Assembly: GCA_012927585.1 (NCBI GenBank)
Contig: JABBOY010000025.1
Coordinates: 1 to 64,000 of the forward strand
Length of the DNA: 64,000 nucleotides
Direction: 5' to 3'
Origin: Glaciimonas sp.
Lineage (GTDB): Bacteria > Pseudomonadota > Gammaproteobacteria > Burkholderiales > Burkholderiaceae_D
Shown piece by piece: positions 45,352 through 53,428 of the stretch (the first letter of the stretch is position 1; each line of letters opens with the position of its first letter). The position numbers and the translations under genes were made by a program. Under the pieces are notes generated by a model. It did no database searches. It saw only the letters and a program-made list of their open reading frames with translations, and was not told where the DNA came from.

Positions 45352-46551
45352 TTATACAGTGCAGGTACGGAAGCCGACGAAGGTGTCATCGCGTTGCGGC
45401 AAATAGAAATTCCTGAATTTCGGTGAACGCATCCGCGGCCGGGTTACAAAAGATGCGCCGCGCAAGACTTGATGCGTGCCAAACCAGGGCGCCGAATATT
45501 CCCGATAGGCATCTGCCACAAAGCCGGGATAAGGCTCAAACTGCGTACAGGTCCATTCCCACAAGCTGCCCCATTGAAACGCCGCATGGCCCGATATGGC
45601 CGCGTATTCCCACTCGGATTCACTTGGCAATCGGCGACCGGCCCAGCGGCAGTACGCCTGCGCCTCGAACAAGCTGACATGGCGCACCGCTTGATGGGCA
45701 GGCAAAGCGGTCAGCCGGTTGAAACTTTCAGTGCACCACCCAAGACCATCGCGCTGCCAGTAACGTGGCGCTGAACGTTCCTGCTGCATCAGCCAGGCCC
45801 GGCCGGCAGTGCTCCAAAAATCCGACTTCTGGTAACCGCCATCCGTAATGAAATCGCTGTACTGGGCATTCGACACCAATGTTGCATCGATACTAAAGGC
45901 AGGCACCAGCATCGGATGTGCCCATTTTTCGTTGTCGAACACGAAGCCCGACTCCGGTACGCTGCCGAGCAGCATCGTGCCGCCGGGAAAATCGATCGCA
46001 ATCTGCGGTGCCGGCGCTGCCGTTGTTTGGTTTATCCGTGGCGGTGCTTCCAGACCCAGGGTTTGCAAGGTCATCGCGAAAGCCTCGCCGTGCATATCTT
46101 CATGCGCTAACACCAACTGGTAAGGTGCCAAGTCACAGCCTGATGCGCCTGATTTCTCTAACTTATCCAGCTTATCCAGCACCCGATCCAATATCTCGCA
46201 GCAATACGTCTTGAGCGCGCCGGCGCTGGGCAAATCGATCAGCCAGCGCGTGCGGTGCGGCACCGTATTCGAATCAAACCAGTCGTCGCCCTGTGTCAGT
46301 AAACAGGGGCGCTGCGCCGCAGCGGGGTTGCTCGACTCGGCCTCGCGCAGTACGAACCATTCAGCGAACCAGGCAATATGCCCCAGTTCCCACAGCGGCG
46401 GATTGATGATGGGTAAAAACGGCACATGAGCTGATACATCCAGGCTGGCAGCCGAAAAACGATCAAACAACAGCAGCGTATAATGCCTCGCGTCTTGCAA
46501 GGCAGTTGCCAGTTCTTCCGCAGAAGCATTTCGAAACGAGGGGCTAATCAT
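45352..46551 (-). CDS. senA: Selenoneine synthase SenA (EgtB-like)
   Basis: A 399-residue nonheme-iron enzyme related to EgtB. In the described pathway SenA joins hercynine to the selenosugar made by SenB, leading to selenoneine. The N-terminal DinB-like domain carries the expected iron ligands His58 (ELGHIAWFAEW) and His150/His154 (LAHEDMHGEAF). The C-terminal formylglycine-enzyme-like domain has ARRLPSESEWEYAA-type residues and ends with VLRGASFVTRPRM and KFRNFYLPQRDDTFVGFRT. The variant HEDMHGE replaces HEQQHQE of the EgtB at 52-53 kb. Divergent from senB with 33 bases between start codons. The function rests on homology plus the senB-selD neighbourhood. Confidence 0.85.
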   Translation of the reverse strand: MISPSFRNASAEELATALQDARHYTLLLFDRFSAASLDVSAHVPFLPIINPPLWELGHIAWFAEWFVLREAESSNPAAAQRPCLLTQGDDWFDSNTVPHRTRWLIDLPSAGALKTYCCEILDRVLDKLDKLEKSGASGCDLAPYQLVLAHEDMHGEAFAMTLQTLGLEAPPRINQTTAAPAPQIAIDFPGGTMLLGSVPESGFVFDNEKWAHPMLVPAFSIDATLVSNAQYSDFITDGGYQKSDFWSTAGRAWLMQQERSAPRYWQRDGLGWCTESFNRLTALPAHQAVRHVSLFEAQAYCRWAGRRLPSESEWEYAAISGHAAFQWGSLWEWTCTQFEPYPGFVADAYREYSAPWFGTHQVLRGASFVTRPRMRSPKFRNFYLPQRDDTFVGFRTCTV

Positions 46552-47652: not shown

Positions 47653-48714
47653 ATGAATACACCGACTGACTTGAAAATCAAACTGACCGCGTTTTCCCAC
47701 GGCGGCGGCTGCGGCTGCAAAATTGCACCCGGCGTACTGTCTGAAATCCTGAAAAATTCAGCCGGTTTCCCGATACCGAAAGAGTTAATGGTCGGCATTG
47801 AAACCGCCGATGACGCAGCGGTATACAAGCTCAATGACGAGCAGGCACTGATTGCAACCACCGATTTTTTCATGCCCATCGTCGATGACCCGTTTGACTT
47901 CGGCCGTATCGCCGCCACCAATGCGATCTCCGACGTGTATGCAATGGGCGGCACGCCCATTATGGCGCTGGCCCTGGTCGGAATGCCGATCAACAAATTG
48001 CCGGTGGAAGTGATTGGACAAATCATTCGCGGCGGTGAAACTATCTGCGCCGAAGCCGGCATCCCGATTGCCGGCGGCCACACCATCGATTCGGTCGAAC
48101 CGATTTACGGCCTGGTCGTCATGGGCTTGATCCACCCTTCCAAAGTCAAGCGCAATGCCGACGCCAAAGCAGGCGACAAGCTGATTCTCGGCAAGCCCAT
48201 CGGCGTCGGGATTCTGTCGGCTGCGCTGAAAAAAGATGCGCTGGACGCCGCCGGTTATGCGGCGATGATAGCCAACACCACCAAGCTCAACAAGCCCGGC
48301 CGCGCGCTGTCCGACCTCGACACTGTGCATGCAATGACGGATGTCACCGGTTTCGGCCTGCTCGGCCATTTGCTGGAACTGGCACGTGGCGCCAAGCTGA
48401 CCGCCAAGCTGGACATGGCGCAGATTCCAATGCTGCCGAACGTCCAGCACCTGGCTGAACAAGGCTTTATCACCGGCGCGTCAGGCCGCAACTGGGACGC
48501 CTACGGCCACGATGTGACACTAGCGGACGCCATCACGCCAACCCAGCAAGCCTTGCTATGCGACCCGCAAACTTCCGGCGGTTTGCTGGTTTCGTGCGAT
48601 CCGGCCGCGGTAGGCGAAATCCTTGCGTTATTCGCCCGTGAAGGCTTTGCCGACGCGGCGGTAATTGGCGAAATGACCGAAGGCCCAGCCGGGATAATCG
48701 TCACAGCAAAGTAG
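47653..48714 (+). CDS. selD: Selenophosphate synthetase SelD (SenC role)
   Basis: Makes selenophosphate from selenide and ATP. 353 residues. The catalytic motif is HGGGCGCKIAP, with Cys20 (equivalent of E. coli Cys17) and Lys23; the active site holds cysteine, not selenocysteine. The ATP and metal residues DDAAVY, TTDFFMPIVDDPFDFGRIAA and AGGHTIDSVEPIYGLVV are conserved, and the C-terminal half has TDVTGFGLLGHLLE and LLCDPQTSGGLLVS. In selenoneine clusters this gene is called senC and supplies SenB. No selA, selB, selC or selU is in the window, so a further role in selenoprotein or tRNA modification cannot be judged here. Confidence 0.95.
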   Translation: MNTPTDLKIKLTAFSHGGGCGCKIAPGVLSEILKNSAGFPIPKELMVGIETADDAAVYKLNDEQALIATTDFFMPIVDDPFDFGRIAATNAISDVYAMGGTPIMALALVGMPINKLPVEVIGQIIRGGETICAEAGIPIAGGHTIDSVEPIYGLVVMGLIHPSKVKRNADAKAGDKLILGKPIGVGILSAALKKDALDAAGYAAMIANTTKLNKPGRALSDLDTVHAMTDVTGFGLLGHLLELARGAKLTAKLDMAQIPMLPNVQHLAEQGFITGASGRNWDAYGHDVTLADAITPTQQALLCDPQTSGGLLVSCDPAAVGEILALFAREGFADAAVIGEMTEGPAGIIVTAK

Positions 48715-48753
48715 TTGCAACGGCACAAATATGCGCGAAATACCGCAAGGGGC

Positions 48754-48783
48754 TTGACAAACCCTGCTTGCGCCCACTACATT
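48754..48783 (+). promoter_or_regulatory. Promoter of the leuA leader
   Basis: A perfect TTGACA (48754-48759) and TACATT (48778-48783) are 18 bases apart, about 410 bases before leuA and just before two short leucine-rich frames. Confidence 0.7.
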
Positions 48784-48789
48784 GAACCC

Positions 48790-48876
48790 ATGTCATTCGC
48801 TCAATTCCCCTTTCTGAACTTCGTACAGCCTGCTTGCGCTCCGCTAGCAGGCTTGCTACGACTGCCGCTGGCGTAA
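48790..48876 (+). CDS. Short upstream frame in the leuA leader, moderately leucine-rich
   Basis: A 28-residue frame beginning MSFAQFPFLNF a few bases after the predicted -10 box, with six leucine codons, most in the last third (LAGLLRLPLA). It would start at or near the transcript 5' end, so it could be translated as a leaderless or near-leaderless peptide. It may be a first leader peptide or chance. Supported only by position and composition. Confidence 0.35.
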   Translation: MSFAQFPFLNFVQPACAPLAGLLRLPLA

Positions 48877-48898
48877 AACGCCCGCTTTCTGTTTTACC

Positions 48899-48922
48899 CT
48901 GCTGGCAGCGCGCTGCCAGCAG
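48899..48922 (+). repeat. Perfect 24-base palindrome in the leuA leader
   Basis: CTGCTGGCAGCG is followed at once by CGCTGCCAGCAG. No T-run follows, so it is not a standard terminator; it could be an RNA pause structure. Confidence 0.75.
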
Positions 48923-48974
48923 TCCGGCAAGAAAACAATACTGCTGATCCACAATATCCAACATGCATTCCATA

Positions 48975-49109
48975 ATGAATCCTGTAACCATCATGCAAGG
49001 CACATTCGTCGCCCTGATGGTTGTTGCGCGTTCGCTGGGTCTGCTGAATCTACCGCTACTGCCACGACTGCTGCTACCGCTACCGATCGGTTGCCTGGCC
49101 TTGCGTTAA
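48975..49109 (+). CDS. leuL: leuA leader peptide (leucine-rich)
   Basis: A 44-residue frame starting [14 protein letters not shown], with an in-frame ATG four codons upstream and another six codons downstream. About 13 residues are leucine, clustered as [18 protein letters not shown]. The frame ends 82 bases before leuA and its stop lies inside a predicted RNA structure. This is the pattern expected of an amino-acid attenuator: scarcity of leucyl-tRNA would stall ribosomes in the cluster. Too short and too biased to be an ordinary protein gene. Confidence 0.75.
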
Positions 49110-49134
49110 GTGGCCGTCAGGCAGCCTCGCTGCC
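49092..49134 (+). promoter_or_regulatory. Mutually exclusive hairpins of the leuA attenuator
   Basis: TGCCTG (49092-49097) plus GCC can pair with GGC and CAGGCA (49118-49123), spanning the leader stop codon. Alternatively GGCAGC (49120-49125) pairs with GCTGCC (49129-49134). The two share bases 49120-49123, so only one can form. The second lacks a U-tract, so termination would need Rho or another mechanism. Confidence 0.5.
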
Positions 49135-49191
49135 ACATCAATTGTTCAAACTTGTTATTACCATTTCCTCTCAAAACCCAAAGGATTCATC

Positions 49192-50883
49192 ATGATGTTG
49201 CCCAACCCTGCAGCCAAATACCGCCCGACTCCCGTTGTCCAAATTAGCAACCGCAGTTGGCCGGATCAGACTCTCACAACAACGCCGATCTGGATGAGCA
49301 GCGATTTGCGCGACGGCAATCAGGCATTGATCGAGCCGATGAGCCTGGAAAAGAAACTGCGTTTTTTTGAAATGCTGGTCAAGATCGGCTTCAAGGAAAT
49401 TGAAGTCGGCTTTCCTTCCGCCTCGCAAACCGATTTTGATTTCGTGCGCATGTTGATTGATGAAAAGCGCATTCCAGACGACGTCAGCATCATTGCGTTG
49501 ACCCAGTCGCGCGAGGCATTGATCGACCGCACGATTGAATCCATGCTCGGTGCCAAGCGCGCAATCGTGCATCTGTACAACTCGGTAGCGCCGGCTTTTC
49601 GCCACATCGTCTTCAAAATGTCACGCGCTGAGATCAAGGCGCTCGCCATCAGCGGCACCCAGCGCATCAAGGACTTGACTGGCGCGCACCCTGAAACTGT
49701 CTGGCGTTTTGAATATTCGGCGGAATCATTCAGCCAGACCGAACTGGATTTTTCCAAAGAAGTGTGCGACGCGGTGTCCGCAGTCTGGCAACCGACTCCC
49801 GCCTGCAAGATGATCATCAATCTGCCGGCCACCGTCGAATCCAGTACGCCGAACGTGTATGCCGACCAGATCGAGTGGATGCACCGCAATCTGGCCCAGC
49901 GCGACGCGATTATCCTCAGCGTTCATCCGCACAACGACCGCGGCAGCGCAGTAGCCGCAGCCGAATTGGCGATGATGGCCGGCGCGGATCGGGTCGAAGG
50001 CTGTTTGTTCGGTAATGGCGAGCGTACCGGCAATGTCGATCTGGTGACGCTGGCCATGAATCTGTACACCCAGGGCGTGCATCCGGGACTCGATTTTTCC
50101 GATATCGATAGCGTGCGGCGCTGCGTCGAAGAGTGCAACCAGATCCCGGTGCATCCACGCCATCCGTATGTCGGCGATCTGGTATTTACCGCCTTCTCCG
50201 GCTCGCATCAGGATGCGATCAAAAAAGGTCTCGCCCAGCAGCAAGCGGATACCAATTGGGAGGTGCCGTATCTGCCGATTGATCCAGCCGACCTCGGGCG
50301 CAGCTACGATGCGGTGATCCGCGTCAATAGCCAGTCCGGCAAAGGCGGCATGGCATATTTACTGGAGCAGGAATACGGTTTGTCGCTGCCACGCCGGTTG
50401 CAAATAGAATTCAGCCGTGCGGTGCAGGCAACCACGGACCGCACCGGGGGCGAAGTTGCAGCGCAGGACATCTACGCCATCTTCAAGCAGGAATACCTGG
50501 CTCGCACCACGCCCTACGCCTATCAGGCACACCGGATGGAAGAAGACTCTGCCAAAGCGGAAGCGGTTCAGATCGAAATCGACATCGTCCAGAGTGGTAA
50601 ACAAATGGCGCTGGCAGGCGGCGGCAACGGGCCGATCGACGCTTTCGTCAACGCGCTCGGCCTGGATATCCAGTTGATGGATTATCACGAACATGCGATC
50701 GGTTCCGGCGCCAATGCGCAGGCGGTTTGCTACGTCGAGTTGCGTCTCGATAATGGCCCGACTTTATTCGGTGTGGGACTTGATGGCAACATTGTGACCG
50801 CTTCGTTCAAGGCAGTACTGAGCGCCGTCAACCGGCATCTGGCGCTGCGCCAGCGGGAACAGGCACTCGCAACACAGGGGTAA
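49192..50883 (+). CDS. leuA: 2-isopropylmalate synthase
   Basis: First committed step of leucine synthesis: acetyl-CoA plus 2-oxoisovalerate. The 563-residue protein is the long class (LeuA type 2). The TIM-barrel motif [15 protein letters not shown] supplies the metal-binding aspartate, and [20 protein letters not shown] the metal histidines. The C-terminal regulatory domain (from about 440) binds leucine for feedback inhibition. Translation may start at either of two adjacent ATGs. It is controlled by the leader upstream and is separated from leuCDB by 13 kb. Confidence 0.96.
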
Positions 50884-52222: not shown

Positions 52223-53428
52223 TTAAGAGCGCGCCAGACGGATGCCGCTGAATTGCCAGCGCGCGCTCGCCGGGAAAAAATTACGATAGCTGGGACGTGC
52301 CTGATCAATCGGCGTGGCGCAGGAAGCACCGCGCAATACGTATTGATTGACCATGAATTTGCCGTTGTATTCGCCAATGGCGTCTGCCGAAGCCCGAAAG
52401 CCCGGATACGGCGCATAGCTGCTCGATGTCCATTGCCATGCGGTATCGAATAATTGCAATAAAGGCTCCGCGTCCGATTCGCTCGCCACCGCGCACTCCC
52501 ACTCGGCTTCACTGGGCAGACGCGCGTCGAACCAGCGGGCGTAAGCATCGGCCTCGAAATAAGACAGTTGGGTAACCGCACGCTCCACATCCAGTAATTG
52601 CAAGCCGTTCAGAGTAAATTCATGCCACTCGCCGTCTATCTGACGCCAGTACAACGGCCACGTCAATTGCTGCGCTTGCAGCCAATCCCAGCCTTCGGAC
52701 AGCCACAACGCCGCATGCCGATACGCGCCAGCTTCGATAAACGCCAGATATTCGCCGTTCGTCACCAACCGGGACGCCAGTGCGAACGGTTCGACAAACT
52801 GCCGGTGGCGCGGCAATTCATTATCAAAGCAGAATCCGCCGCCGGCATGACCGATCTCGACCACGCCGCCCTGCTGCTGCTGCCAATGCAACGGCAAGGC
52901 CAGCGCCAGCGGCAGCACCGCGCCGGCGGCATAGGCAGGCAACAGGGGATTGCAGGAAAGCAGATGCAGGACGTCGGTCAGCAGCAGTTCCTGATGCTGC
53001 TGTTCGTGCTGCAAACCCAGCGTCACCAATTGCACCAGTTCGGCCACCCGTGCCGGCGGCAGGCCAGCGGCGATCAAAATCAGCGCCTCCATCCGGGCAT
53101 CGACATTACTGCGGTAATCCTCCACTTCGGCCAAGGAGGGCCGCGTGATCAGGCCGCGCCGGGGACGCGGATGCCGGTTGCCGACGCCGTGGTAATACGA
53201 GTTGAACAATACACGGTAGGCCGGATGATGCGGCTTGAAATTAAGCTCGAACTGCTCCAGCACAAAAGTCTCGAAAAACCAGGTGGTGTGCGCCAGATGC
53301 CATTTGACCGGGCTGGCATCCGGCATCGATTGCACACAGCAATCCTCATCGGATAAAGGGTCGGCCAGCGCCATCGTGGCTTGTCTTGTCAAGTCGTATT
53401 CAGCCAGCAGGGAAATAAGCATTGTCAT
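52223..53428 (-). CDS. egtB: Ergothioneine biosynthesis protein EgtB
   Basis: A 401-residue nonheme-iron sulfoxide synthase joining hercynine to a thiol donor (gamma-glutamylcysteine or cysteine, depending on the subtype) with oxygen. N-terminal DinB-like domain with iron ligands His47 (WHLAHTTWFFET) and His141/His145 (LQHEQQHQELLL). C-terminal formylglycine-enzyme-like domain with DARLPSEAEWECAV and TSSSYAPYPGF, ending VLRGASCATPIDQARPSYRN. Encoded 18 bases after egtD on the same strand. egtA, egtC and egtE are not in the window; the C-S lyase must be elsewhere. Confidence 0.92.
   Translation of the reverse strand: MTMLISLLAEYDLTRQATMALADPLSDEDCCVQSMPDASPVKWHLAHTTWFFETFVLEQFELNFKPHHPAYRVLFNSYYHGVGNRHPRPRRGLITRPSLAEVEDYRSNVDARMEALILIAAGLPPARVAELVQLVTLGLQHEQQHQELLLTDVLHLLSCNPLLPAYAAGAVLPLALALPLHWQQQQGGVVEIGHAGGGFCFDNELPRHRQFVEPFALASRLVTNGEYLAFIEAGAYRHAALWLSEGWDWLQAQQLTWPLYWRQIDGEWHEFTLNGLQLLDVERAVTQLSYFEADAYARWFDARLPSEAEWECAVASESDAEPLLQLFDTAWQWTSSSYAPYPGFRASADAIGEYNGKFMVNQYVLRGASCATPIDQARPSYRNFFPASARWQFSGIRLARS

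Follow-up and report, generated by a model that had tools for sequence, protein, structure and literature searches.

Tandem leucine-rich leaders and an interleaved RNA element upstream of leuA in Glaciimonas sp., a candidate ribosome-gated leucine sensor

How is the expression of leuA governed in a Glaciimonas sp. genome in which the interval between selD and leuA holds a promoter and two short open frames (uORF1 and uORF2)? An original prediction, made from the letters of the window (the entire stretch of 64,000 nucleotides of contig JABBOY010000025.1 analysed here), described a leucine-rich leader frame with competing hairpins in an attenuation-type arrangement, and omitted uORF1 (48790–48876). 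The features of the locus are as follows.

47653–48714, upstream of leuA: selD
48754–48783, forward strand: promoter with –35 box TTGACA (48754–48759), 18-nt spacer and –10 box TACATT (48778–48783)
48790–48876, forward strand: uORF1, leucine leader MSFAQFPFLNFVQPACAPLAGLLRLPLA followed by its stop, with the ATG 6 nt past the –10 box
48963–49109, forward strand: uORF2, second leucine leader with 13 leucine codons (4 of them CTA), stop codon TAA at 49107–49109
49080–49082, forward strand: last leucine codon (CTA) before stem A, 6 nt ahead of A
49089–49099, forward strand: 5' strand of stem A, GGTTGCCTGGC
49110–49114, forward strand: 5' strand of stem B, GTGGC, within the loop of A
49116–49126, forward strand: 3' strand of stem A, GTCAGGCAGCC, forming 11 bp with the 5' strand, stop codon in the loop
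49132–49136, forward strand: 3' strand of stem B, GCCAC, beyond A, forming 5 bp
49138–49177, forward strand: C-rich, G-poor stretch between the element and leuA (10 C, 2 G), a candidate Rho-loading region
49192–50883, forward strand: leuA, 2-isopropylmalate synthase of the TIGR00970 type (795 bits versus a cut-off of 697)

The good promoter claimed by the original prediction was recovered: two promoter-like sites were found in 48600–49300 versus 0.6 expected, the TTGACA/TACATT pair being one of the two, and the layout TTGAC-, 17–18 nt, TA---T is common to 47 of 47 chosen loci of Oxalobacteraceae. This set left out a duplicate (L036) and two cut-off loci (L012, L048), and also omits five loci of the same family with a more distant LeuA (L022, L025, L026, L029 and L030); two genomes (G013, G032) yielded no locus. 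Since the ATG of uORF1 follows the –10 box at 6 nt, the transcript probably starts at or next to this ATG, and judged by the promoter position uORF1 is thus probably leaderless. The corresponding gap measures 6–7 nt in 46 of the 47 loci and 9 nt in one, gaps of 3–11 nt having been accepted by the script. uORF1 recurs in all 47 loci as a mostly leucine-rich frame, in which CTA accounts for 202 of 354 leucine codons, whereas leuA from the same loci uses it for 5 of the 1806 leucine codons among its first 500 codons, a very large contrast for which a p-value is not meaningful as such, these loci being related. In the window alone, the CTA signal is modest, with 2 of 6 leucine codons in uORF1 and 4 of 13 in uORF2, set against a background of 75 of 1658 in the 39 ORFs over 250 aa.

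Two folds in this upstream part are not claimed as parts of the arrangement. uORF1 of the window folds well (z –3.5, none of 200 shuffles as low), and a very strong 10-bp hairpin without U-run lies between uORF1 and uORF2 (48899–48922). Similar hairpins are present in same-genus relatives, with no family-wide fold at that place. For the family as a whole, no conserved fold was found after uORF1: the mean z is –0.2, and values below –1 occur in 8 of 40 loci. The last 70 nt of uORF1 are intermediate, with a mean z of –0.7 and values below –1 in 20 of 40 loci.

The leucine-rich frame of the original prediction is real and contains 13 leucines. Its length of 44 codons, which results from a second in-frame ATG at 48975, needs revision: in L004 and L005, two relatives from the same genus, this second ATG is missing and the first is kept (MHST...), so that 48963 is the likelier start, giving 48 codons. 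At the 3' end of uORF2 resides a conserved 58-nt RNA element, which was compared in 78 loci (alignments A2 and A3 combined; 75 distinct element strings, related loci). All 78 placed loci have an open frame that enters the element. The last leucine codon before stem A is CTA in 65 of them and another leucine codon in 13, at a spacing of 6 nt throughout except for three loci with 5 nt; because the element was excised in the leucine-codon register, the informative figure is the share of CTA and not the presence of leucine. Over the last 21 codons before A, CTA makes up 173 of 441 leucine codons. The residues encoded between CTA and A vary (P/A/S/L, I/T/R) with the RNA letters largely constant, and the loop letters CTNGCG persist, whether coding or past the stop codon. 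In two Herbaspirillum loci and in L009, the frame stops directly after the last CTA (CTA TGA) and both stems are kept. Two properties of uORF2 count against the explanation favoured below, namely the variable position of its stop, which lies as little as 4 nt and elsewhere over 100 nt inside the element, and the small number of leucine codons that several loci from other lineages contain (L024, L109 and L174, for example).

Stems A and B bear out the predicted two overlapping stems, one of which spans the leader stop. They have no position in common and interleave in the manner of a pseudoknot. Hence, the two hairpins described as competing do exist as interleaved stems, but share no bases, unlike the strand-sharing hairpins of the enteric model. 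Across 51 aligned loci, 98.2 % of the cells of the whole structure are paired, and two-sided changes amount to 30 cells versus 7.4 in shuffles (none of 500 as high); the pairing falls to 22–59 % when the partner is shifted by one to three columns. For stem A, 97.5 % of cells are paired and 6 of the 11 pairs have changed on both sides; 837 of 858 cells pair in the 78 loci of both alignments. Stem B is almost invariant among the 51 aligned loci. Counted by script, as MAFFT misaligned its 3' strand in alignment A3, B finds its partner in 77 of 78 loci, and in seven distant loci (L024, L088, L111, L174, L213, L229 and L231) it is altered yet recompensated (e.g., GCGAC/GTCGC or CTGGC/GCCAG). Stem A thus covaries strongly and stem B is supported, albeit less strongly than A, because in 3233 of 14741 trials a shuffled B strand could likewise pair with a strand at most about 25 nt away.

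The element of the window folds with z = –1.8 (11 of 200 shuffles as stable), and 37 elements of the family have a mean z of –2.0 with 31 below –1. In the topology scan, the window scored 40.0, which is above the 95 % quantile of 180 shuffles (38.0) and below their 99 % quantile (41.0). Formation of A and B as a full pseudoknot in one molecule is uncertain, because the linker after A comprises only 3–5 nt in 50 of 77 loci, which was judged insufficient to cross an 11-bp stem without fraying of A.

The element was not found in three of the 47 loci carrying uORF1 (L019, L040 and L049), and in none of the five loci with a more distant LeuA did an element score exceed the 95 % shuffle quantile, a weaker candidate in L030 reaching 34.5. 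In Massilia eburnea and Duganella sp. CF458 (L040 and L049), the promoter and the putatively leaderless uORF1 are kept without uORF2 or the A/B element, the stop of uORF1 lying about 80 nt ahead of leuA. Leucine-rich leaders closely behind a –10-like box and before leuA, with no scored A/B element, were also observed in Burkholderia arboris (L152) and in L083, L095 and L107, so leaders of the first type may occur more widely than the element does.

Searches of further genomes tie the element to leuA of the TIGR00970 type. A model of the A stem (R1) was run on 399 Burkholderiales genomes, 132 of which possess a TIGR00970 leuA, and matched 27 sites spread over 26 genomes; all 27 matches are located 43–187 nt upstream of such a gene on its strand. 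A second model (R2) gave one match each in 81 of 145 genomes of the family. Of these matches 80 precede leuA, 78 of them directly upstream of a TIGR00970 match at 43–127 nt (median 67) and two (G027, G843) ahead of a leuA start near a contig end. Both models were trained on some of the genomes later searched, and of the 22 among 80 upstream regions matched by R2, 18 stem from the training set. R2 also misses some members, such as G004 (locus L011), despite its being in the training set. Among the 105 family genomes with a TIGR00970 leuA, 26 are without an element match, which counts against the favoured explanation. The phylum-wide search matched 5 of 398 genomes, all from within the same order, the stricter filters of the larger genome searches losing weak matches. 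In the window's own genome, the next-best element match has an E-value of 1.75. Outside these matches, both stems are present in Parvibaculum (L089, L090) and a comparable A stem in Shinella and Sphingomonas, in whose loci R2 found no significant match. The start positions of part of the upstream regions were set by script, which failed for one region (L221), and a few look misplaced.

The arrangement is more than chance, since the stems covary and the element precedes leuA in other genomes. Conservation in relatives, the absence of which would have refuted the original prediction, was found in the covariation, in the frames of all 78 loci and in the placement before leuA. The conservation of the leaders, the CTA codons, the stems and their register is established. 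Two additional copies were observed. The match in G854 (L237, C15 88844–88906) is followed by no leuA in the forward frames of about 2.1 kb downstream, in a genome without any TIGR00970 match, and represents an orphan copy or one that has lost its leuA; in G266, a second copy (L142, C6:215700–215756) precedes a second TIGR00970 match that covers profile positions 1–325 only.

A U-run is absent after stem B in the window, just as had been pointed out for the final stem. Terminator-like hairpins were detected in 4 of 42 and 0 of 25 loci versus 2.0 and 1.3 expected from shuffles, and two of the four (L053, L055) sit upstream of the promoter. An intrinsic terminator as the missing part was rejected, its frequency across relatives being near the shuffled expectation. 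From the proposed attenuation-type arrangement, therefore, the conserved and largely CTA-based leucine leader stands, whereas terminator-like hairpins do not clearly exceed shuffles. The scan of both strands returned two terminator-like sites versus 0.9 expected, only one of them on the leuA strand. A weak terminator-like hairpin is located at the stop of uORF1 (48870–48882; GGCGTAAAACGCC then CGCTTTCTGT, 5 pairs and a T-rich tail) and is kept in at least L003 and L004; it counts against the favoured explanation. Rfam contained no match at the gathering threshold, and at E ≤ 10 only matches to microRNAs and snoRNAs (E 3.2–7.5).

In the stretch between the element and leuA, C outnumbers G at 70 of 72 loci, with C/(C+G) at a median of 0.66, compared to 41 of 78 loci for a control stretch 540–600 nt upstream and to a median of 0.50 (90th percentile 0.63) at the starts of 52 ORFs in the window. 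This rut-like composition provides circumstantial support for Rho. As no conserved intrinsic terminator was found and a C-rich, G-poor stretch precedes leuA, Rho-dependent termination is favoured as the output.

Taken together, the locus probably encodes a cis-acting, ribosome-gated leucine sensor of leuA, for which Rho-dependent termination is the favoured output and regulation of leuA translation the other candidate. Transcription would start at the ATG of uORF1 and ribosomes would translate both leucine-rich leaders. The last leucine codon of uORF2, usually CTA, would be read 6 nt before A, which would close over the leader stop codon while B interleaves. Under scarcity of leucyl-tRNA, the moment at which A is opened or shielded would differ between ribosomes slowed at the leucine codons and ribosomes reaching the stop, and this timing would shift the balance among A, B and a possible A+B pseudoknot. 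The balance would in turn determine either Rho-dependent termination or the translation of leuA; which way the switch turns and what it acts on are both inferred. That ribosomes read the leader for leucine is well supported by the leucine codons being conserved and largely the rare CTA.

The best reading of the element is that of a proteobacterial LEU-type variant with tandem leaders. According to Seliverstov 2005 (PMC1262725), a LEU element precedes leuA in most Actinobacteria and consists of a leucine leader, a conserved pseudoknot and a base stem with the Shine-Dalgarno sequence, its mechanism being unexplained. A leucine-run leader before leuA, interleaved helices and the lack of an obvious terminator are common to that element, as described there, and the present one. 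The base stem between the leucine codons and the leuA Shine-Dalgarno sequence is at best weak here. Further differences are the two tandem leaders, the dominance of CTA, and a predicted leaderless leader that is not the one overlapping the element. Actinobacterial leuA regions from a plasmid collection (Nonomuraea, Microbacterium, Nocardia and Tsukamurella) contain a short leucine leader starting closely behind a –10-like box and, 3–5 nt past its last leucine codon, a stem A of 11–12 bp with an interleaved B; they scored 44.5–48.5 in the topology scan, the shuffles of which were not matched to their base composition. The leuA copy on a Streptomyces megaplasmid (L150) showed no such leader or element (score 35.0). 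With filters off, R2 gave no match at the element in five actinobacterial loci (L147–L151), so that common descent is not established. The present element may work like the actinobacterial one and be related to it; it was not classed as a LEU member, because no profile similarity was found and at most a weak base stem was seen.

Among the rival explanations, translational control of leuA, in which the accessibility of the leuA ribosome-binding site would depend on where the ribosome stands on uORF2 and on the A/B fold, with no termination involved, is unlikely but to be reckoned with. It agrees with the short distance at which the element ends ahead of the leuA HMM match in the family (43–127 nt, median 67), with the base stem described for the actinobacterial elements in PMC1262725, and with a slight excess of pairing between the leucine run and the Shine-Dalgarno sequence. 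This excess, however, is small: in 47 of 76 loci the stem is more stable than with shuffled Shine-Dalgarno sequences, the averages being –10.4 and –9.4 kcal/mol (p 0.004 in a Wilcoxon test across related loci), and in some loci the element is much farther from leuA, starting up to 211 nt upstream. A site for an RNA-binding regulatory protein, as proposed for the actinobacterial element in Seliverstov 2005, with the leaders incidental or only tuning translation, would account for the high conservation of the loop letters CTNGCG and of GTGG/CCAC; the abundance of CTA in both leaders would be difficult to account for if the codons were not read, and this proposal is improbable. Still less probable is classical transcription attenuation of the enteric type, in which stalling on the leader selects between an antiterminator and an intrinsic terminator. 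Leucine-rich leaders, alternative stems and the weak hairpin at the uORF1 stop would suit it, yet the stems interleave without a shared strand, no U-run follows B, terminator-like hairpins stay near the shuffled expectation and Rfam is silent at its gathering threshold. Finally, a conserved sequence without leucine-specific role, such as a general stabiliser of the 5'-UTR, has nothing specific in its favour and is highly improbable, the element occurring almost only before leuA with leucine codons adjoining.

The leader of the enteric leu attenuator uses rare leucine codons. It resembles the present system in placing a leucine-containing leader before leuA, and differs from it in that here no intrinsic terminator was found, the stems interleave instead of sharing strands and Rfam yields no match. 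In Escherichia coli, the leu leader has 28 aa including 4 leucines (PMC6123439), and that source mentions in general terms, citing another work, putative leaders and terminators before branched-chain amino acid genes of various Gram-negative species. A presumed leuA leader of Corynebacterium glutamicum contains four consecutive leucine codons (PMC4046766).

For Streptomyces coelicolor, the mutants cited in PMC1262725 count against ribosome-gated reading: changes of leader codons were without effect in ilvB, and the effect in leuA was inconsistent with classical attenuation. In Streptomyces lividans TK24, the leaderless leucine leader leuL1 (MRFGLLLLSCRGEGL and its stop) precedes leuA without a typical Rho-independent terminator, as stated in PMC8079986. 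That leader is single, short and reported to be leaderless, whereas in the present locus there are two leaders and leaderlessness is predicted. Here, uORF1 is leaderless by promoter position, but the leader overlapping the element is uORF2, and terminators are near expectation.

A leaderless, amino-acid-rich short ORF is also found in the polycysteine attenuators of mycobacteria, in which a cysteine-rich frame reportedly controls biosynthetic genes and is said to do so by translation attenuation. The amino acid is a different one, and we know of no A/B element in these attenuators.

The actinobacterial leuA leader went without an explanation in 2005, with a leucine leader and a pseudoknot, no terminator and mutants not fitting classical attenuation. 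A counterpart in Betaproteobacteria, with both stems changing and a striking CTA signature, opens the mechanism to direct tests in tractable hosts. It would also be a sign that amino-acid attenuation which does without intrinsic terminators and relies on leaderless leaders reaches beyond the enteric model. A description from Betaproteobacteria was absent among the literature matches listed, and Lopatovskaya 2010 and Vitreschak 2004 might mention the case. More speculatively, and with considerable doubt, one may think of a leucine switch across phyla, tied to TIGR00970 leuA in Beta-, some Alphaproteobacteria and Actinobacteria, in which interleaved A/B RNA would be read at rare leucine codons with Rho-dependent output, and which a leaderless upstream leader would have doubled into two serial sensors in Oxalobacteraceae.

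On either side of the selD–leuA region, two large, similar-looking ORFs (45352–46551 and 52223–53428) are located on the reverse strand, which presumably resemble EgtB-type enzymes.
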